From positions 62,001 through 126,000 of the forward strand of contig JAJRWB010000044.1 in NCBI GenBank assembly GCA_024276995.1: DNA of 64,000 nucleotides. Reading direction: 5' to 3'. A program made the translations under genes and the position numbers. Under the pieces are notes generated by a model. That model had not been told where the DNA came from. It saw only the letters and a program-made list of their open reading frames with translations, and did not search any database. Origin of the DNA: Candidatus Eiseniibacteriota bacterium (lineage in GTDB: Bacteria; Orphanbacterota; Orphanbacteria; Orphanbacterales; Orphanbacteraceae). Position 1 is the stretch's first letter, and every line of letters starts with the position of its first letter. Of this stretch, positions 12,814 through 62,360 are shown piece after piece.

Positions 12814-13500
12814 TCAGCTCCAGGCCACTTCCTCGAAACGCTCATCCGACTGCAGCCGGTCGAAAACCGTCCGGTCATACCCCTGCGTTCGCGTGCGGAG
12901 GTGCAGCGACACCTGGCATTTCCCCGTATTCGGCTGGCGGATCACACTGCGACTCTGGATATGCACACGGTCACGAACGAGCCGCTCCACTACCTCATCG
13001 AGCAAGAGGAGATCTCCATGCCACTTCAGGTGAAGCGTGGAGTACTGGTCGGATCGGATGGGGAGACGATGAAGCGCGTAGAGCGAAACGAGAACAAGCA
13101 GTGTCAGAACCACGGCAATCAAGTATTCACCGAGCCCGACGGTCACCCCCACGGCGGAAACGACCCAGATCGACGCCGCCGTCGTCAATCCCCGCACGAA
13201 ATCCCGGCTCTTGACGATGGTGCCCGCTCCGAGGAAACCGATGCCGGTGATCACACCGGCGGCCGCCCGGGCGGGGTCGACACGAATCGCCGATTCCGCG
13301 CCCACATTCATTTCGAGCATGAGCTTCTGGAAGGCGACGATAATCGCCGCGGATCCGAGACAGACGAGAATGTTGGTGCGCAGCCCCGCCGACCGCCCTC
13401 TCGCCTGTCGCTCCATGCCGACGAGACCGCCGAGCACCATCGCCACGAGCAGGCGCAAAACGAAGACTCCGTTCATTCCCATCATATCGAATAGACTCAT
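12814..13500 (-). CDS. MgtC/SapB family membrane protein
   Basis: A 228-residue protein with four or five hydrophobic segments in the first 140 residues, then a soluble C-terminal domain. The signatures LGGLVGMERQARGRSAGLRTNILVCLGSA and GVITGIGFLGAGTIVKSRD are those of the MgtC/SapB family, including the acidic residue in the second segment. Family members modulate Mg2+ homeostasis, ATP synthase or polysaccharide production; the role here is unknown. The C-terminal domain (about 150-228) looks like the ACT-like domain found in longer members. The gene stands alone between the glycosidase and the mercury-type cluster. A possible TTGCCG/TATCGT promoter lies about 60 nt upstream but is weak. Confidence 0.9.
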   Translation of the reverse strand: MSLFDMMGMNGVFVLRLLVAMVLGGLVGMERQARGRSAGLRTNILVCLGSAAIIVAFQKLMLEMNVGAESAIRVDPARAAAGVITGIGFLGAGTIVKSRDFVRGLTTAASIWVVSAVGVTVGLGEYLIAVVLTLLVLVSLYALHRLPIRSDQYSTLHLKWHGDLLLLDEVVERLVRDRVHIQSRSVIRQPNTGKCQVSLHLRTRTQGYDRTVFDRLQSDERFEEVAWS

Positions 13501-13712
13501 TACCGAATCCTCACGTTATCCGGGGCGGCTTACGATAAAAACCCTTACTCCTCCGGCAACCTTATCACGTCCCTTCGCAATCGCAGGCGGAATTCTACGT
13601 TTCCCGCCGGCATCGTGAACACCGATCGCGCGCACGCCCCGGGTGAACGCGCCGCATAACCGGGCTCGCTCACGAAAGTTACAGATTCGCCGTAGAAAAC
13701 ACCCGCGAGCCC

Positions 13713-13743
13713 TTGACCCTACACTTGGGTGCAGGGTGTATCT
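13713..13743 (+). promoter_or_regulatory. MerR-type promoter/operator
   Basis: TTGACC is followed by GTATCT with a 19-nt spacer, longer than the usual 17, as in promoters that MerR-family activators untwist. Inside the spacer, 13716-13737, is a 22-bp near-perfect dyad: arms ACCCT-x-CAC and GTG-x-AGGGT. It lies 19 nt before the merR GTG, so the regulator most likely controls its own operon. The arm sequence differs from the Tn501 mer operator. Confidence 0.75.
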
Positions 13744-13762
13744 ATGGAGCAAGGAGGTGACC

Positions 13763-14179
13763 GTGGAGAACGACAAGATGCAAATCGGCGAGGCCGCCAA
13801 GATGGCGGGGGTCCATATTCGAACTCTCCACTATTATGAACGCCGCGGTCTGCTCGCTCCGGCGCGAACCTCGTCCAACTACCGGGTCTACACGGAAGAT
13901 GCCGTGAGGCGGGTGCGCTTCATCAAGCGTGCCCAGGAACTCGGTTTCACCCTCGACGAAATCGGTGAGCTTCTCGAACTTCGGATCGACGCCCGCGCCA
14001 GGTGCTGCGACGTTCGCGTGCGAACAGAAGCGAAGGTCGCCGATATCCGGGGGAAGATTCGAACCCTTCACTCGATGCGGCGATCCCTCGAACATCTCAT
14101 CGCCGGTTGTTCCGGTAACGGTCCGGTGAGCGACTGTCCGATCCTCGAGAGTCTCGACCGGGACGGGATACGCCGATGA
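13763..14179 (+). CDS. merR: MerR-family thiophilic-metal-responsive regulator
   Basis: A 138-residue regulator with an N-terminal winged helix (MQIGEAAKMAGVHIRTLHYYERRGLL, NYRVYTEDAV), a dimerisation helix and a C-terminal metal-binding loop. The GTG at 13763 follows a perfect AAGGAGGTGA. Cysteines sit at 82 (and 81), 116 and 125, matching the three Hg(II) ligands of Tn501 MerR (82, 117, 126) in number and spacing (Cys-8 residues-Cys, followed by PILESL). This points to Hg(II) or a similar soft metal rather than Zn, Cu or redox sensing. The stop overlaps the next gene as ATGA. The symbol is by family; the inducer is inferred. Confidence 0.88.
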   Translation: MENDKMQIGEAAKMAGVHIRTLHYYERRGLLAPARTSSNYRVYTEDAVRRVRFIKRAQELGFTLDEIGELLELRIDARARCCDVRVRTEAKVADIRGKIRTLHSMRRSLEHLIAGCSGNGPVSDCPILESLDRDGIRR

Positions 14180-14628
14180 AACAAAACGCGGGACTGCGCG
14201 GTCTTCTTTCTCTCTTCCCCGGGGTCGGTGCTTCCCTCCTCCCGGTGGGCATTTGTCCCGCGTGCTGGCCCGCGTATGCGGGGCTCCTGAGTGCCCTCGG
14301 TCTCGGGTTTCTCCTGGAGAGTCGTTTTCTCTTTCCCCTCACCGCCGCGCTTTTCGGCCTCGCCCTTCTGAGTCTCGGTTACCGAGCACGGACGAGACGC
14401 GGCTACCGGCCGCTTGCCCTCGGCGGTGTGGGAGTCGCCCTCGTCCTCGGCGGGAAATTCCTCTTTCCGATGAACGTCGCGCTCTATGCGGGGCTCGTCA
14501 TTCTCGTCGCCGCATCTGTCTGGAACTCCTGGCCGCGAAAGGCCTCAGCATCCGGTTCGTGCCCCTCATGCGTCCCCGGGGCCGGAACCTTATCGACACG
14601 GGACGCGAGAAAAGGAGAATCGTCATGA
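14176..14628 (+). CDS. MerC/MerT-like inner-membrane metal transport protein
   Basis: A 150-residue protein with about four membrane segments (roughly 15-35, 36-50, 52-70 and 82-115). A vicinal cysteine pair, Cys27-x-x-Cys30 (GICPACWPAYAG), lies in the first segment, and a second pair, Cys129-x-x-Cys132 (SCPSC), is in the C-terminal tail. Mercury importers of the MerT/MerC/MerF group use one pair in the first helix and another on the cytoplasmic side. The match is by layout rather than by close similarity, so other soft metals are possible. It overlaps merR and the thioredoxin-like gene by 4 nt each. Confidence 0.72.
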   Translation: MKQNAGLRGLLSLFPGVGASLLPVGICPACWPAYAGLLSALGLGFLLESRFLFPLTAALFGLALLSLGYRARTRRGYRPLALGGVGVALVLGGKFLFPMNVALYAGLVILVAASVWNSWPRKASASGSCPSCVPGAGTLSTRDARKGESS

Positions 14629-14891
14629 CAGAAAAACGTAAAGTGGAAGTGTTCACCGCCGCCTGCCCGGTGTGCGACGAGTTGGTTTCTCTCGTGAAGC
14701 GACTCGCCTGTGCGTCGTGCGATGTCGCTATTCTCGACATGCACGACGCTTCCGTCGCTGCGCGCGCCGGGAAACTCGGCGTCCGCTCCGTGCCGGCCGT
14801 CGCCATCGACGGCAAGCTCGCCGACTGCTGCGCCGAGCGGGGAATCGACGAAGCGGTCCTGCGTGCCGCGGGCCTCGGACGGGAGGCGTAG
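14625..14891 (+). CDS. Thioredoxin-fold protein with multiple Cys pairs
   Basis: An 88-residue protein with a compact thioredoxin/glutaredoxin-like fold: a beta strand VEVFTAACPVC (Cys14-x-x-Cys17), a helix, a second pair in ACASC (Cys29, Cys32), the cis-Pro loop GVRSVPAVAIDG and a third, adjacent pair in ADCC. No signal peptide is visible, so it should be cytoplasmic. Six cysteines in 88 residues suggest it takes metal from the membrane protein's CPSC tail, or reduces it. The ATG overlaps the previous stop (ATGA); AAAGGAG precedes it. Function is inferred from context. Confidence 0.75.
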   Translation: MTEKRKVEVFTAACPVCDELVSLVKRLACASCDVAILDMHDASVAARAGKLGVRSVPAVAIDGKLADCCAERGIDEAVLRAAGLGREA

Positions 14892-14935
14892 ATGCCGAGG
14901 TCATTCGCGCGATCGCGCGCCCCCGCAGGAGGGGA

Positions 14936-15258
14936 ATGATCGGACATCCGATCCCCCGGCCGTTGCTGAACCTTCTTTGGGGGGTGCTCTTTTTCCCCAT
15001 TGCCGCTCCGGCACGGTTCACGCGTTGGGGGAGGTGAGGCTTCTCGCCGGCCGGCCCGTCCTCGTCGCTCCCGATGGAACGCAACTGTTTAATGTCGAAA
15101 TCACCAATGTCCTTTCCCGGCTCAGCCCGGGCGGCGGGATCCTGTACCACGTCTCGGGGACGATCGCCATACCCGGAAAAAGGGATACGGAGATCCCCGC
15201 TGAACTCCTTCTCTCGCTCACGACGGCCGAGCCGGGGAACGACAAAGAGGAGGAATAG
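14936..15258 (+). pseudogene. Small exported protein interrupted by an apparent one-base frameshift
   Basis: The ATG at 14936, after AGGAGGGGA, begins a convincing signal peptide (PLLNLLWGVLFFPIAAPA), but that frame stops at 15037. A second frame, without its own good start, continues as HALGEVRLLAGRPVLVAPDG and ends at 15258, 2 nt before the next gene. Adding a single base near 15014-15018 (the CGG after GCA) would join them into a 107-residue secreted protein, and 323 nt plus one is a multiple of three. It is either a recent frameshift or a sequencing/assembly error. The mature part has no motif I recognise. It sits between the thioredoxin-like and outer-membrane genes of the mercury-type cluster. 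Confidence 0.6.
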
Positions 15259-15260
15259 CG

Positions 15261-16070
15261 ATGTCGACCGTCCCTTTCCGGAAACTCGCTTTCGCTCTTC
15301 TCCTTTGCGCGTGTTTTTTCCCCGCTCCCAAGACACGGGCGCAGGGTCCACCGATCCACACCGATACGCCGATCATGCTCGGTCTCGAAGGGCGCGGTGT
15401 GCGGACGTTCTTCGAAGTCGTCCGGAAGAGCAGGCTCCTGGAGGATGGGAACGAGGTCGACGATCCTTCCGGCCGGTCGGTCACGGCGCAGATCTCGCCT
15501 CTCGCGGTGCCGTATAATTTCACGTCCACCTTCCAGGTCGGCGCCGTCATTCCGTTCGTCACGAAAACACTCGATTCGGACACCATGAGCAAGACCCGCT
15601 CCGGCGTGGGCGACGTCTCGCTCTTCATCAAGAAGCTCCTCGCTCAGATCGACCGGAAGGGGGAAACGTTCCGTGTCGCCGTGAAAAGAACGGCGAAACT
15701 GCCCACCGGCGATGACGAGACACCGGTTCCTCTCGGCACCGGTGCGATCGACTACGGCGATCGCGTCGGCTACAACGCCTCTGTCGGTTTCCGCCTCCTA
15801 CCGGTGATCTACGAACGCTACCCGTCGCCGCAGCTGAACCTCTATGTCGAGCGGAACGGAAGCATGGACGGTCGCACCGAGATTTCCGGCGTACGCAACG
15901 CCGATTCGGGCGGCTCGACGCTTTTCTTCTCGCCGGGAATCCAGTTCATCGGCGGAAGGAAGTGGCTGATCGAGGCGTCATTGCAGTTCCCCGTTCGTGA
16001 CGAGCCGAACGGCACACAGCTCGGCACCGACTGGGCGGCGAGTTCCGGTGCGCGGATCCTTCTCTTCTGA
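15261..16070 (+). CDS. Putative outer-membrane beta-barrel protein of the mercury-type cluster
   Basis: A 269-residue protein with a signal peptide ending TRAQG (about residue 28) and no hydrophobic helices afterwards. It shows alternating amphipathic strands and ends in a terminal aromatic residue (ARILLF), as outer-membrane barrels do. The start PPIHTDTPIMLGLEGRG and internal VGDVSLFIKK and LPTGDDETPV resemble the MetA-pathway/porin-like transporter superfamily. It starts 2 nt after the preceding frameshifted gene and is the last gene in the cluster, so it may move metal or metal-thiol complexes across the outer membrane. That role is inferred. Confidence 0.7.
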   Translation: MSTVPFRKLAFALLLCACFFPAPKTRAQGPPIHTDTPIMLGLEGRGVRTFFEVVRKSRLLEDGNEVDDPSGRSVTAQISPLAVPYNFTSTFQVGAVIPFVTKTLDSDTMSKTRSGVGDVSLFIKKLLAQIDRKGETFRVAVKRTAKLPTGDDETPVPLGTGAIDYGDRVGYNASVGFRLLPVIYERYPSPQLNLYVERNGSMDGRTEISGVRNADSGGSTLFFSPGIQFIGGRKWLIEASLQFPVRDEPNGTQLGTDWAASSGARILLF

Positions 16071-16306: not shown

Positions 16307-17980
16307 ATGATCCGGAAGCTTCACATAACCGCAATCGCACTCCTCTTCCTGCCGGCCGCGCCGACCGTCCGCGCCGACGTGCCGCGGACGATCCCCTTCG
16401 AGGGGGTGCTCACCGACACGTCGGGTCTTCCCCTCGAGGGGAGTTACGCCTTCACCTTTTCCCTATACGCCGATACCACGGCGTCGCCCGAATGGAGCGA
16501 CACCCGGACGCTCGATGTGAAGGGGGGCTTCTACGAAACCGTCTTCGATGTCGACTCCCTCTCTTTCACCGATCCGCTCTTTCTGGGAATTGCCGTGGAC
16601 GGTTCGCGGCTCGGCCCGATGATGGCGCTCGGAAGCGTGCCGTACGCTCTCTCCATCGCCGACGGCGCGGTGAGCGGCAAGAAGATCGCACCCGCCACGG
16701 TGGTGCGGAGCATCAATTCGAGGACCGATTCACTCGTGATCGCCGGCGGCGGAAATGTCGAGGTGACGACATCGGGGGATACGATACGGATCTCATCGTC
16801 CGCCGTTCCCGCCGAAGCGGACAGCGACTGGACGGTGAAAGGGGATACGGTCTACACCGTCGATCGGCGGGTCGGGATCGGAACCGCGTCCCCGACGGAG
16901 AGACTCGTCGTCGGCGGTGACAGCGAGGGAGAATGGGTGAGACTGGAAAACCGGAGCGGCGGGGGAAAGGTGGGAATCGCCTTCGGCAACGAGGAGGAGA
17001 CGAAATTCTCGCTCGGCGTCGACCTCGACAGCGGCACCGTGATGTTCAGCCGCGGCGCAGATTTCTTCCTGCCGACGATCACCATCGACCCGTGGGAGAA
17101 GATCGGTATCGGGACCCGCCACCCTAACGCCACACTCGACGTGAACGGCAGCATCAACTGCGTAAGCTCGGTGTGGATCGATGAGCTGATCGAAGGAAAG
17201 GGGACGCGCATCGGTTTCGGCGCCATTCGGGACGTTTTTCCGGGGGACCTGCACTGGAATCCGGACTCCACACGGTTCGAACTGAACTACGGGATGCTGA
17301 TCGACGGTCCGATCCGGGTGGGCAACGATTCCTACCAGGGGGCGAACAGCGATTACAACTACCTCTCGGAAGGAGCCTTTCCCGAGCCCGTTTCCGGCAT
17401 GATGGACAACCAGGGTGATCTTTATGTCGAAAATGATCTCGAGACGGGCGGCGCCCTCGCCGTGGGCGGTCTATTCACGGTGACGTCTATCGACACCCCA
17501 TCCGCGACGGACTATAACTACATCGCCTTGACTAAGGCACCCGCGCCGGTGAGTCAGACGATCGATGACGGCAACGATCTGTACGTGTGGGACGACATCG
17601 AGGCGGGGGGAACGATCTCCGCATGGAACTTCGTCGATCTCCAGCCGGGACCGGCGAAAAGCGCACCGGGCGATACGCTCCCTCTCGCCACGGCCCGCTC
17701 GGTGCTCTCGACCGTCAGGGCGGTTTCCTACCCCGAAACGGGGGGCGCGGGGCGAAGAGAGAAGCGAAACGACGGCGACGGAATTCATCTGAACGCGGGG
17801 TTTCTCCCCGAAAGCGTCCCCGCCGAGATCGCGGGGCCGGGAGGAGTCGGCGTGAGCATCGTAGACCTGATCGCCGTGCTGACCCGTGTCGTCCAGGATC
17901 AAGATTCGGTGATCGCTGCGCAGAATGATCGGATCGACAGGCTGGAAGAACAGCTGAGCGCCCGGGACGGCGTACGATGA
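16307..17980 (+). CDS. Secreted tail-fibre-like surface protein with S74-type C-terminus
   Basis: A 557-residue protein with a signal peptide (to about TVRA). The start chosen is the ATG at 16307, 10 nt after AAGGAG; the ATG at 16298 is only 1 nt from that site. An N-terminal beta domain (PFEGVLTDTSGLPLEGSYAFTFSLYAD) is followed by repeats of the tail-fibre kind (RVGIGTASPTERLVV, KIGIGTRHPNATLDVNGSI). Two 53-residue copies lie near residues 337-440. The C-terminus (AGFLPESVPAE, VSIVDLIAVLTRVVQDQDSVI, then a short coiled coil) resembles the intramolecular chaperone of peptidase S74 proteins. No catalytic Ser-Lys pair is obvious. A trimeric surface appendage or adhesin is plausible. Confidence 0.7.
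   Translation: MIRKLHITAIALLFLPAAPTVRADVPRTIPFEGVLTDTSGLPLEGSYAFTFSLYADTTASPEWSDTRTLDVKGGFYETVFDVDSLSFTDPLFLGIAVDGSRLGPMMALGSVPYALSIADGAVSGKKIAPATVVRSINSRTDSLVIAGGGNVEVTTSGDTIRISSSAVPAEADSDWTVKGDTVYTVDRRVGIGTASPTERLVVGGDSEGEWVRLENRSGGGKVGIAFGNEEETKFSLGVDLDSGTVMFSRGADFFLPTITIDPWEKIGIGTRHPNATLDVNGSINCVSSVWIDELIEGKGTRIGFGAIRDVFPGDLHWNPDSTRFELNYGMLIDGPIRVGNDSYQGANSDYNYLSEGAFPEPVSGMMDNQGDLYVENDLETGGALAVGGLFTVTSIDTPSATDYNYIALTKAPAPVSQTIDDGNDLYVWDDIEAGGTISAWNFVDLQPGPAKSAPGDTLPLATARSVLSTVRAVSYPETGGAGRREKRNDGDGIHLNAGFLPESVPAEIAGPGGVGVSIVDLIAVLTRVVQDQDSVIAAQNDRIDRLEEQLSARDGVR
17315..17632 (+). repeat. Two-copy 159-nt coding repeat
   Basis: Two units of exactly 53 codons inside the surface protein. Each contains DYNY, then P-x-PVS, then D-x-GDLYV or GNDLYVW, then D-x-E-x-GG. 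The first DYNY begins at 17351 and the second at 17510. The DNA has diverged, so this is an old duplication of a beta-repeat module. Confidence 0.65.
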
Positions 17981-18052
17981 GGTCCGGCGAGGCCGTGGCC
18001 TCTTCATCGCGCGGGTCATTCGTCCGGCACCGTACCGACACGCCCGCCCCTT

Positions 18053-19726
18053 TCAGCTTCCGGCCAGCGTCTCTTGTATGGCGCCGCACAGCTCGGTGAT
18101 ACCGTACGGCTTTTGAACGTACCGCGCGATCCCGTCGACCATCTCCTCACCGATGTGACCGTCGAGGGTATAGCCGGAACTGAGGATCACCTTCACACCG
18201 GGTTCGATCTTCCGCAGGACTTCGTAGACGGCCTTTCCGTCCTTTCCCGGCATGATCATATCGAGCAGTACGAGATCGATCCTCGCCCGCTCTTTTCGAA
18301 AGCGTTCGATCGCTTCTTCTCCCCCGTGGGCCTCGATGATGCTATAGCCCGCCCTCCTCAGAATCCGGCCCACCACGTCGAGAACCTGTTCTTCGTCGTC
18401 CACCACGAGAATCGTGCCGCTCCCCTTCACGATTTCCTTCTTCGGAGATCCTACCGCCTCTCCAAAATACGCTCCGGACGCGGGCAGCACGATCCGGATC
18501 GTCGTGCCACCGCCCGGCGGGCTCATCGCGTCGATCGAGCCTCCGTAGTTTCGGATCGTCCCGAGCACGACGGAGAGCCCCAGGCCCGTCCCACGGTCGG
18601 GCGCTTTCGTTGTAAAGAAAGGATCGAAGATTCTGTCGATATCCTCTTCCGGAATGCCCGTACCGGTATCGGTGGTCAGAATCTGGATATATTCTCCCGG
18701 CTCGACGCCGGAAAAATCGCGGCGATTCTTCTCGTCCACGGTGACCCGCCTCGTTTCGATCCGCAGTGTTCCCCCTCCGGGCATCGCATCGGAGGCGTTG
18801 GTGCAGATGTTCAAGAGTGCGAGCTGAATCTGGTTTCCGTCGACAACGACATCGGGCAGTTGTTCCTCCAGGTCGAGATCGATCTGGATGCTCTTCATCA
18901 GCGTCCTGGAGAGCATCTCGTGAAGGTCGCGGATGATCGCGTTGATCGAAGCGGGCCTGCTTTTCAGCTCCTCCTTTCGGGCGAAGGTGAGCATCTTCAT
19001 GGTCAGCTCCTTCGAGCGGAGGGCCGCCTCCTCGATCTGGAGAAACGCATCATACCCGGGATCTCCCGGTTTCAGATCGAGCTTTCCCAGCTGCGCGTTG
19101 AAGAGGATCACGGCGAGGAGATTGTTGAAGTCGTGCGCCACCCCGCCCGCGAGGTGGCCGAGGGCGTCGAGTTTGCTCGACTGCAGGAGCTGCTGGTGAA
19201 GTCTCTCCCTGTCGACTTCCGCCGCCTTCCGGTCGGTGATATCGATGATCGTGCTTTGCAGCCCTGTCACTTCGCCGTCGAGACCGGTAAGGGGTCTCGA
19301 ATTGTTGAGCACCGTAATGACGGTTCCGTCTTTTCGCCTGAGACGATGTTCGAAGTTAGTGATCCGCTCGCCGTGGAGGAGTCGATCGTGGGCCGGCTCG
19401 ACCGCCGCCGGATCGGCATCGACATCCGGAATACGCAGGCCGAGCAGTTCTTCCCGCGTGTATCCGAGAAGGTCGAGCCCCGCCTGGTTCGAATCGATGA
19501 AATGCATCTCCCTGTCGAACACGTAGATTGCCGCGATCGACTCGTCGAAGATTCCCCTGTACTTCTGTTCACTCTCGCGCAGTTCGCGAATCATGCGGGC
19601 ACGGTCGGACAGATCACGAGTCGCCGCCTCTTCCTCGCCGGCACCACGCTCCCCCACACAAGCCGGCTCCGTCTTCAGCCCCCCGTCGAGCTTGCCCGAT
19701 TCCCCGCCGGACCGCTTCTCGATCAT
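18053..19726 (-). CDS. PAS-containing hybrid sensor histidine kinase
   Basis: A 557-residue protein from the ATG at 19726 (MIEKRSGGESG); a longer start at 19858 is possible but adds low-complexity basic sequence. Domain order: PAS (about 50-170; YRGIFDESIAAIYVFDRE, LGYTREELLG), DHp helix with the phospho-acceptor His in GGVAHDFNNLLAVI, an HATPase domain (NICTNASDAMPGGG, DTGTGIP, GTGLGLSVV) and a C-terminal receiver with phospho-acceptor Asp in LVLLDMIMPGKDG. No membrane segment or signal peptide is present, so it is a cytosolic sensor. There is no response regulator nearby; the fused receiver may be a phosphate sink or pass the signal to an unlinked phosphotransfer protein. Confidence 0.92.
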   Translation of the reverse strand: MIEKRSGGESGKLDGGLKTEPACVGERGAGEEEAATRDLSDRARMIRELRESEQKYRGIFDESIAAIYVFDREMHFIDSNQAGLDLLGYTREELLGLRIPDVDADPAAVEPAHDRLLHGERITNFEHRLRRKDGTVITVLNNSRPLTGLDGEVTGLQSTIIDITDRKAAEVDRERLHQQLLQSSKLDALGHLAGGVAHDFNNLLAVILFNAQLGKLDLKPGDPGYDAFLQIEEAALRSKELTMKMLTFARKEELKSRPASINAIIRDLHEMLSRTLMKSIQIDLDLEEQLPDVVVDGNQIQLALLNICTNASDAMPGGGTLRIETRRVTVDEKNRRDFSGVEPGEYIQILTTDTGTGIPEEDIDRIFDPFFTTKAPDRGTGLGLSVVLGTIRNYGGSIDAMSPPGGGTTIRIVLPASGAYFGEAVGSPKKEIVKGSGTILVVDDEEQVLDVVGRILRRAGYSIIEAHGGEEAIERFRKERARIDLVLLDMIMPGKDGKAVYEVLRKIEPGVKVILSSGYTLDGHIGEEMVDGIARYVQKPYGITELCGAIQETLAGS

Positions 19727-60317: not shown

Positions 60318-62360
60318 ATGCATCTCATTGAGCCGGCGCGGTGGAAGAAGGGCGTCCGCCCGGAAGATCTCTTAAGAGCGGGAGAGAACGATCCGGCCCG
60401 CCGTGACGGGAACGAAAGCGCCGTCGTCCGCGGCAGGGCGCTCATCTTTCACGACCCGGCGCGCCCGGGAAAGAAGCTCGACGCCATCGACACCGACCAG
60501 ATCACCCCGGCGAAGGATTGCGTCTCCACGAGCCTCGAGAAGCTCGACGAACGGTGGAAAGCGGGCGCCTTCCGTTACCTGATGCCCGATTTCCGCGAAA
60601 GGGTTCATCGGGGCGAGAACTTCATCGTCGCCGGCGACCGCTTCGCCATCGGGTCGTCGAGGGAAATGAGCCCCGCCGGTCTCAAGGCGATCGCCGCCGA
60701 GGCGGACCTCGAGATGGTGATCCTGTGCGGCGCGAATATGGGCGACATTTTCCGCCGGAACGCGCTCAACCTGGGGCTTCACGTGGCGCAGTCGGTCGAG
60801 GCGGTGGCCGACGCGCGCGACGGCGACGAGTTCTCTTTCGACACGAAAACGCGACAGATCACCAACGAGACGCAGGGGAAGACGTACACGCCGATCCCTC
60901 TCACCGGAAAGGAAGAGGAGATCCGCCGTTCGGGAGGGATCTTCGCCGTGGGGAGGCGGGAATTCGCCCGGTCGGCGGCGATGAAACCGGTGATCGAGTG
61001 GCCCGACGGCGCCGACGCCGACCGGCTCACCACCACCGAGCAGATCGTGTGGGCCCACCGTGTCGATCGCGACGCCGCCGTCGAACCGGGGGGCACGTAC
61101 CGCCTCTTCGCCGACCTCCTCCCCGCCTCGGACGGCACCGCCCCCTTCTCGATCCACACGTTCCAGGAAATCACGGGGGGCGATACGATCCATCCCCGCC
61201 AGATCGCCATCGCGAGCGACCACTTCGTCTTCACCGGGAAGGAACAGGACGATCTGCAGACCGCAATCTCCAGACAGTTCGTGCAGAAAGAAGGAATCGG
61301 AAAGCCATACATCGCCGAGCCGGGGGACGGCATTTTTCACTTCTATTTCCCCGAACAGGGACTCGTCTACCCGGGACAGTTCATCCCGGGCGCCGATTCC
61401 CACACGAGAACGTACGGCGCGTACGGCGCTCTCGCCGTCGGTGTCGGTTCCACCGCCCTCGGCTTCGGCTGGTCGACAGGTTATATCTATTTCACCCTGG
61501 CGAACCAGCGCCGGGTGACGTTCACCGGCTCGCTCCGGCCGTGGGTGAGCGGGAAGGATATCGTTCTCGCCCTCCTCGCGCACTGGGGGGAGGAGCAGTC
61601 GAAAGGGATGTGCGTCGAGTTGGTCGACGCCGATCGGCAGCTCCCGATCGCCTATCGCCACACGATCGCGAACATGATGGCCGAGGCGGAGGCGCAATGC
61701 GGCATCTTCGCGCCCGACGAGATCACGGAGGGGTGGTACCGTTCGCGGGGGATGACCGACCTCCCCTACCCGATGATCCGCCCCGGGAAGAAGGCGCATT
61801 ACGAGATCGACGAAACGTTCGACCTCGCCCGAGTAACGCCGCTCATCGCGAAGCCGTCGCATCCGTCGAACGGCGTCGATGCCGAGGAGGTGGCGAACGA
61901 GAAGATCGCTTTCGACAAGGCGTACATCGGTTCGTGCACGAACGGCGGTTACGACGACCTCCTCCAGGCGGCCCTCGTGATCCGCGCGGCGCGCGACACG
62001 GGACACTCGCAGGCGAAGTGCGAGTTTCTCGTTTTTCCCGGTTCGCGCGGCGTGGCGGGAAAGATCCACGAGGCCGACCCGCGCCTCGGCGGCGAATCGA
62101 TCGCGGCGGTGTTCGAAGGGATCGGTGGGAAGATCCGCGAATCGTGGTGCGGGCCGTGTTTCGGCCAGGGACCGGACGCCCTCGCCGAGGGGGAGCGGGC
62201 GATCGCCACGTTCAACCGGAACTGGCGAAACCGGATGGGCATCGGCGGCGAAGGGTTCCTGGCGAGCCCGGCGGTGGTCGCCTCTTCCGCGCTCCTCGGC
62301 TATATGGCCCCCCCCTCGAGACTCGGCCTCGAGTGGGACGCGGATCTTTTCGGTATTTAG
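60318..62360 (+). CDS. Aconitase-superfamily dehydratase with fused LeuD-LeuC-like domains
   Basis: A 680-residue protein. The N-terminal part is a LeuD/swivel-like domain (IDTDQITPAKDCVS near 60; GDRFAIGSSREMSPAGLKA near 115). From about residue 235 it is a LeuC/aconitase core: TTTEQIVWAHRV, PGADSHTRTYGAYGALAVGVGSTAL, and cluster ligands in IGSCTNGGYDD and WCGPCFGQGPDAL. Yeast Leu1 and AcnA have the swivel at the end; this order is reversed. Substrate is open (isopropylmalate, homoaconitate, methylaconitate or another hydroxyacid). AAGGAG precedes the ATG. A shared transcript with acnA is likely because no terminator separates them. Confidence 0.88.
   Translation: MHLIEPARWKKGVRPEDLLRAGENDPARRDGNESAVVRGRALIFHDPARPGKKLDAIDTDQITPAKDCVSTSLEKLDERWKAGAFRYLMPDFRERVHRGENFIVAGDRFAIGSSREMSPAGLKAIAAEADLEMVILCGANMGDIFRRNALNLGLHVAQSVEAVADARDGDEFSFDTKTRQITNETQGKTYTPIPLTGKEEEIRRSGGIFAVGRREFARSAAMKPVIEWPDGADADRLTTTEQIVWAHRVDRDAAVEPGGTYRLFADLLPASDGTAPFSIHTFQEITGGDTIHPRQIAIASDHFVFTGKEQDDLQTAISRQFVQKEGIGKPYIAEPGDGIFHFYFPEQGLVYPGQFIPGADSHTRTYGAYGALAVGVGSTALGFGWSTGYIYFTLANQRRVTFTGSLRPWVSGKDIVLALLAHWGEEQSKGMCVELVDADRQLPIAYRHTIANMMAEAEAQCGIFAPDEITEGWYRSRGMTDLPYPMIRPGKKAHYEIDETFDLARVTPLIAKPSHPSNGVDAEEVANEKIAFDKAYIGSCTNGGYDDLLQAALVIRAARDTGHSQAKCEFLVFPGSRGVAGKIHEADPRLGGESIAAVFEGIGGKIRESWCGPCFGQGPDALAEGERAIATFNRNWRNRMGIGGEGFLASPAVVASSALLGYMAPPSRLGLEWDADLFGI

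Follow-up and report, generated by a model that had tools for sequence, protein, structure and literature searches.

We report a mer-type operon in which no merA was detected and which we read, with moderate confidence, as mercury-responsive: Hg(II) would induce its own uptake and would then be transferred to a cytosolic multi-thiol carrier. The operon is located in the window, i.e., the 64,000-nucleotide stretch of DNA analyzed here, which corresponds to positions 62001–126000 of contig C25 in an assembly of 3.76 Mb (81 contigs, 96% complete); the phylum is represented in our collection by seven genomes, all from one family. A MerR-type promoter is followed by genes for a MerR regulator, a MerC-like membrane protein, and a thioredoxin-fold protein (Trx), a broken gene 4, and a gene for an outer-membrane barrel (Table 1). 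The assignment to mercury is supported by sequence comparison, since the regulator has the three ligand cysteines, the score of the membrane protein exceeds the MerC cut-off of Pfam, and relatives of Trx occur in or beside merA operons and beside MerR-MerB fusions.

Table 1. Features of the operon, in window coordinates
Feature	Position	Strand	Evidence
MerR-type promoter/operator	13714..13745	+	TTGACC - 20 bp - TATCTA, dyad between hexamers
MerR-family regulator, GTG start	13763..14179	+	Pfam MerR_1, 82 bits; Cys81, Cys116, Cys125
MerC-like membrane protein, 150 aa	14176..14628	+	PF03203, 44.8 bits
Six-Cys thioredoxin-fold protein (Trx), 88 aa	14625..14891	+	PF13192, 32 bits
Gene 4, signal-peptide-like start, stop-terminated	14936..15037	+	frame 2 ORF, 33 aa
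Gene 4, C-terminal part, other frame	about 15013..15258	+	match to C-terminal region of the G004 HMA protein
Outer-membrane beta-barrel gene, internal deletion of ~31 aa	15261..16070	+	PF13557

Promoter, regulator, and membrane protein

The operon begins with merR, which has the promoter on its 5' side, and the MerR, MerC-like, and Trx genes (13763–14891) are joined by 4-nt overlaps. A reading made earlier from the sequence only had placed junctions of 2–4 nt throughout the cluster; these hold for MerR/MerC, MerC/Trx, and gene 4/barrel, whereas Trx and the ATG of gene 4 (14936) are separated by 44 nt. An MgtC-family gene 5' of the operon on the opposite strand (12814–13500) was left out of the system.

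The MerR-type promoter proposed in the same reading is borne out by a spacer in the 19–20 bp range and by the dyad ACCCTaCAC-TTGG-GTGcAGGGT. The pattern is conserved among relatives: TTGAC[TC]-N19/20-TAnnnT, from whose strict form the −10 element of the window is one base away, was found upstream of 23 of the relatives' 47 MerR-first operons (mean for shuffled sequences, 0.05), and the operator of one relative (L047) is near-identical to that of the window.

The regulator has cysteines at positions 81, 82, 116, and 125. Its best NCBIfam model is that of the mercury MerR, with the ZntR and CueR models close behind; the score of 122.7 bits is below the equivalog cut-off (TIGR02051, 150.85 bits), yet it remains the top one. 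The closest PDB match is the Bacillus mercury MerR 4ua1, whose ligands Cys79/114/123 align with Cys81/116/125, and Cys81 is also aligned with the corresponding cysteine (Cys82, Tn501 type) of 5crl. Hence the sequence-only reading was right about the presence of three Hg ligands and about Cys116 and Cys125, while the first ligand is Cys81, the Cys82 that it named being the neighboring residue. All three ligand cysteines are present in 70 of 76 MerRs from the studied loci, including the window. At the first ligand position the CueRs of E. coli and Rhizobium have serine where the window MerR has cysteine. ZntR and CadR have cysteines in all three columns too, so that the ligand cysteines alone are no proof of mercury. 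A MerR tree, considered as a means of fixing the metal, was poorly resolved and left ZntR and CadR unplaced; the CueR references and two copper-type regulators formed a separate, well-supported group in it.

The membrane protein exceeds the gathering score of PF03203 (27.6 bits) and falls short of both NCBIfam MerC equivalogs (38.2 vs. 170 bits for NF010318 and 36.3 vs. 140 bits for NF033784). Its two Cys pairs, reported earlier, were confirmed as CPAC in TM1 (Cys27/30) and CPSC in the C-terminal tail (Cys129/132); the CPxC of TM1 and the C-terminal CxxC are invariant in 22 aligned relatives. The protein is 72% identical to the MerC part of its relative at L020. In most of the relatives, the N-terminus is extended by a further domain of ~105 aa, in which DCPNV, GSPTILVDG, and CR are conserved; the window protein lacks it. 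This domain scores 50 bits with the model of the DF family (cut-off 70) and is confidently predicted by AlphaFold (model mc6ea9bbca4a6); Foldseek found no PDB match for it at E 0.001, and its weak matches are mostly thioredoxins. No close plasmid relatives of the MerC-like protein were found, and the other six genomes of the phylum gave no match to it.

The thioredoxin-fold family and its genomic context

The six cysteines and the thioredoxin fold claimed for the third gene product were both confirmed. The cysteines form CPVC (Cys14/17), CASC (Cys29/32), and CC (Cys68/69) motifs; in an alignment of 36 sequences, Cys14, Cys17, and Cys32 are fully conserved and Cys29, Cys68, and Cys69 are found in at least 90%, in keeping with a metal or thiol carrier. 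The structure predicted by AlphaFold2 (mean pLDDT 80) has a thioredoxin fold according to Foldseek. Genes orf4 and orf5 of plasmid pMR68 were considered as an earlier description of Trx and set aside; orf5 is reported as phosphoribosyl-AMP cyclohydrolase-like and orf4 as hypothetical. In several Pseudomonadota loci (L034, L031, and L075, among others), a second small thioredoxin-like gene is located directly 3' of merR, overlapping it by 4 nt (Trx-MerR-Trx2).

When 84,980 species genomes were scanned with the Trx alignment, 304 relatives were recovered, and loci were analyzed for the best 80. Among these best 80, the strict order MerR-MerC-Trx was identified by script at 23 of 79 distinct Trx loci and by inspection at one more (L019), i.e., at least 24 in total. 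The carriers belong to Myxococcota, Acidobacteriota, Planctomycetota, Verrucomicrobiota, Nitrospirota, Armatimonadota, Pseudomonadota, Thermodesulfobacteriota, and Krumholzibacteriota. At 57 of the 65 distinct loci with enough flanking sequence, a MerR gene is within reach on the same strand as Trx, preceding it in 37 cases and following it in 20. The sequence-only reading had made its case depend on a conserved order elsewhere; the order is kept among relatives in many phyla, and hence the arrangement is not a product of chance.

The Trx family is tied to mercury by relatives that occur inside merA operons or beside MerR-MerB fusions. Two loci have the order MerR-Trx-MerT-MerP-(MerF)-MerA (L048, L093); at three others, a canonical mer operon, merTP(C)A, is followed by a Trx-MerR module (L024, L062, L088); and at a further three, Trx adjoins a MerR-MerB fusion (L026, L027, L058), with MerA above the family cut-off in none of the three genomes. 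Counted over the genomes bearing the best 80 of the 304 relatives, MerA above the cut-off is present in 23 of 77; the remaining 54 are an upper bound for genomes without it, as many are metagenome assemblies and perhaps incomplete. Five of the 24 MerR-MerC-Trx loci are accompanied by such a MerA (L019, L025, L039, L042, L074), and a MerA-like ORF is situated close to the end of locus L095. The genome of L055 (G043) contains a MerA-like frame (C326:3684-5063, 445 bits) with one in-frame TGA, which may reflect either selenocysteine or a broken gene. A 436-aa Planctomycetota protein encoded at L026 (6667-7974), 3' of Trx and the MerR-MerB fusion, has a domain of CopZ type at its N-terminus, joined to a MerTP-like part.

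Distal genes and other mer genes of the genome

The small exported protein of the sequence-only reading has no single open frame: the signal-like stretch of gene 4, preceded by a AGGAGGGG-like ribosome site, and its conserved part are in different frames. The C-terminal part is similar to the C-terminal region of an exported HMA protein from another genome of the same family (G004, locus L116; 37% over 57 aa, E = 7e-8), which is intact and occupies the matching position before the barrel. No counterpart of its HMA domain with CxxC was found in the window; apparently, as judged from this alignment, gene 4 is what is left of a gene for a MerP-like (HMA) exported protein, without its CxxC domain. 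The outer-membrane barrel gene is present as described, with about 31 residues missing relative to aligned homologs; it is 72–74% identical to the barrel of G004. Given the frameshifted gene 4 and the shortened barrel, the chain from outer membrane to cytosol proposed by the sequence-only reading is broken in the window, and the proposal is weakened.

In G004 itself (C18:34000-40000) the operon has decayed differently: the HMA protein and the barrel are intact, MerR and MerC are mostly deleted, and Trx is truncated with a loss of cysteines. Similar gene sets are MerR-MerC-Trx-barrel-HMA at L019 and MerR-Trx-HMA-barrel at L089. The ancestral operon was thus likely MerR-MerC-Trx-HMA-barrel, and its decay has probably followed separate courses in two genera. 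Selection on the operon may be weak, given the apparent damage to gene 4 and the barrel and the decay of the copy in G004.

A merA homolog elsewhere in the genome would, on its own terms, have refuted the sequence-only reading. The absence of merA, claimed for the operon, extends to the genome: no MerA above the family cut-off was found in the 96%-complete assembly, the best match (314 vs. 454 bits) being a lipoamide dehydrogenase encoded beside a lipoyl-domain protein. No merB match was found in the genome, in a search that gave none in control genomes either. The claimed absence of merP stands for the operon, where gene 4 has apparently lost its HMA domain, and fails for the genome, which encodes a MerT-MerP fusion elsewhere. 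The fusion belongs to a second merA-less cluster on contig C2 (about 17005–18457; L120, 3005–4460), together with a MerR having a C-x8-C pair and an upstream Cys, and a stand-alone DF-family protein (116.9 bits, cut-off 70). Therefore, the DF domain fused to MerC in relatives is present in this genome in another operon. The DF gene is preceded by a dyad and a GGTGTATCT −10 region resembling that of the window promoter. The genome thus carries mer-type transporters at both locations, a MerC-family protein in the operon and the MerTP fusion on contig C2. Contig C74 encodes, around 12957–13613 (L115), an HgcAB-like fusion protein (NF043039, 359 bits, cut-off 285) that contains the motif NVWCASG and is related to HgcA and HgcB, the proteins of mercury methylation.

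Proposed mechanism, alternatives, and known systems

In the proposed mechanism, binding of Hg(II) to MerR would switch the operon on, and MerC would move Hg(II) from the Cys pair of TM1 to the C-terminal pair. Trx would receive the metal as a bis- or tris-thiolate without reducing it, and would then store it, hand it on to cellular thiols, or, in relatives that have MerA, deliver it to that enzyme. The periplasmic and outer-membrane steps would formerly have been provided by the lost HMA protein and the barrel. We infer a route ending on a thiol protein instead of reduction, and the final fate of the mercury likewise.

Cells that have mer transporters and no MerA are more sensitive to Hg. Since uptake of Hg without reduction should be harmful, an uptake route ending in a small protein would need a sink or an exit, and for the same reason export by the same parts is a serious rival, if on balance an unlikely one. 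Here, Trx would gather cytosolic Hg(II), released for example by MerB or from damaged proteins, and deliver it to the MerC-like protein, which would export it, with the HMA protein and the barrel as the way out. Such a direction would account for a merA-less operon being harmless and for the HMA protein and barrel at L019, at L089, and in G004, and it is favored by the MerR-MerB fusions that adjoin Trx where the genome has no MerA above the cut-off; it is difficult to reconcile with a MerC that has no energy-coupling domain, with an HMA gene broken in the window, and with the fact that the known MerC and MerT proteins are importers.

We consider it quite improbable that the mer-like parts of the operon are used on a soft metal other than mercury, be it Cu(I), Cd/Zn, or As(III). 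The ZntR and CueR models nearly match the mercury model on the window regulator, and some plasmid relatives have copper-type neighbors (Stanieria and Hymenobacter; L014, L016) or, in Leptolyngbya, arsenic-type ones; against this, CueR has serine in place of the first ligand cysteine, and the neighbors of relatives are dominated by mercury genes, including merA and merB. Points against the proposed mechanism include that ZntR and CadR share the ligand cysteines, that the MerR tree is poorly resolved, and that some plasmid relatives are situated among copper genes. That the operon descends from a mercury operon of the merA type or the HMA/barrel type and is now decaying and without function, as the frameshift and lost HMA domain of gene 4, the barrel deletion, the decayed G004 copy, and the missing MerC-like protein in the rest of the phylum might suggest, is very unlikely: the window retains MerR, MerC, Trx, and the promoter in intact form with all key cysteines, and the short indels may be artifacts of a metagenome-type assembly.

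The operon shares with canonical mer operons (merRTPCAD of Tn21/Tn501; merR-first in Bacillus) the three-Cys MerR, the long-spacer MerR-type promoter, and a MerC-family transporter, to which its relatives add merT, merP, merF, merB, and merA. It differs in that no merA is detected in the operon or the genome and that the six-Cys Trx is encoded third; furthermore, merR is divergent in Tn21/Tn501 and is the first gene of the operon here. With the organomercurial transporter MerC (PF03203), the window protein has in common the Pfam score and the membrane CPxC, whereas it is far below the NCBIfam equivalog cut-offs, has an additional C-terminal CPSC tail, and lacks the N-terminal DF-family domain of most relatives. 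Trx shares the thioredoxin fold and a CxxC near the N-terminus with proteins of the MJ0307 and MTH895/ArsE type (TIGR00411, TIGR00412), but scores below their cut-offs, and is distinguished by its second CxxC and the CC pair. In the SAO system (SaoT, thioredoxin-like; SaoL, MerB-like), a mercury-linked thioredoxin-like protein is likewise encoded in a cluster without MerA (PMC13188914); by contrast, the window Trx scores 12.8 bits against a SaoT cut-off of 65 (NF040730), and no ABC transporter genes were seen in the window cluster. No description of the MerR-MerC-Trx cassette was found in the open-licence literature, and we rate the cassette as a variant of the mer system rather than a new category.

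The handling of Hg(II) in genomes that have MerB and lack MerA has been raised as a problem, and general thiols, sulfide, ferredoxins, and the like have been proposed for merA-independent detoxification, with no operon of the present kind among them (PMC8261052). The same gap, i.e., the means by which cells survive Hg(II) when MerA is lacking, is addressed here: a recurrent MerR-controlled transporter with a dedicated thiol protein, found next to MerR-MerB fusions where the genome shows no MerA above the cut-off, is a concrete and testable candidate. The MerR-MerC-Trx trio may represent a second, widespread means of dealing with mercury. A stronger proposal, possible though somewhat doubtful, is that the trio forms a self-contained, merA-independent module of Hg detoxification in many phyla, with Trx as terminal acceptor or relay of Hg(II), and that it also serves organisms with MerB and without MerA. 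If true, counts of merA alone would underestimate the mercury-handling organisms in metagenomes.
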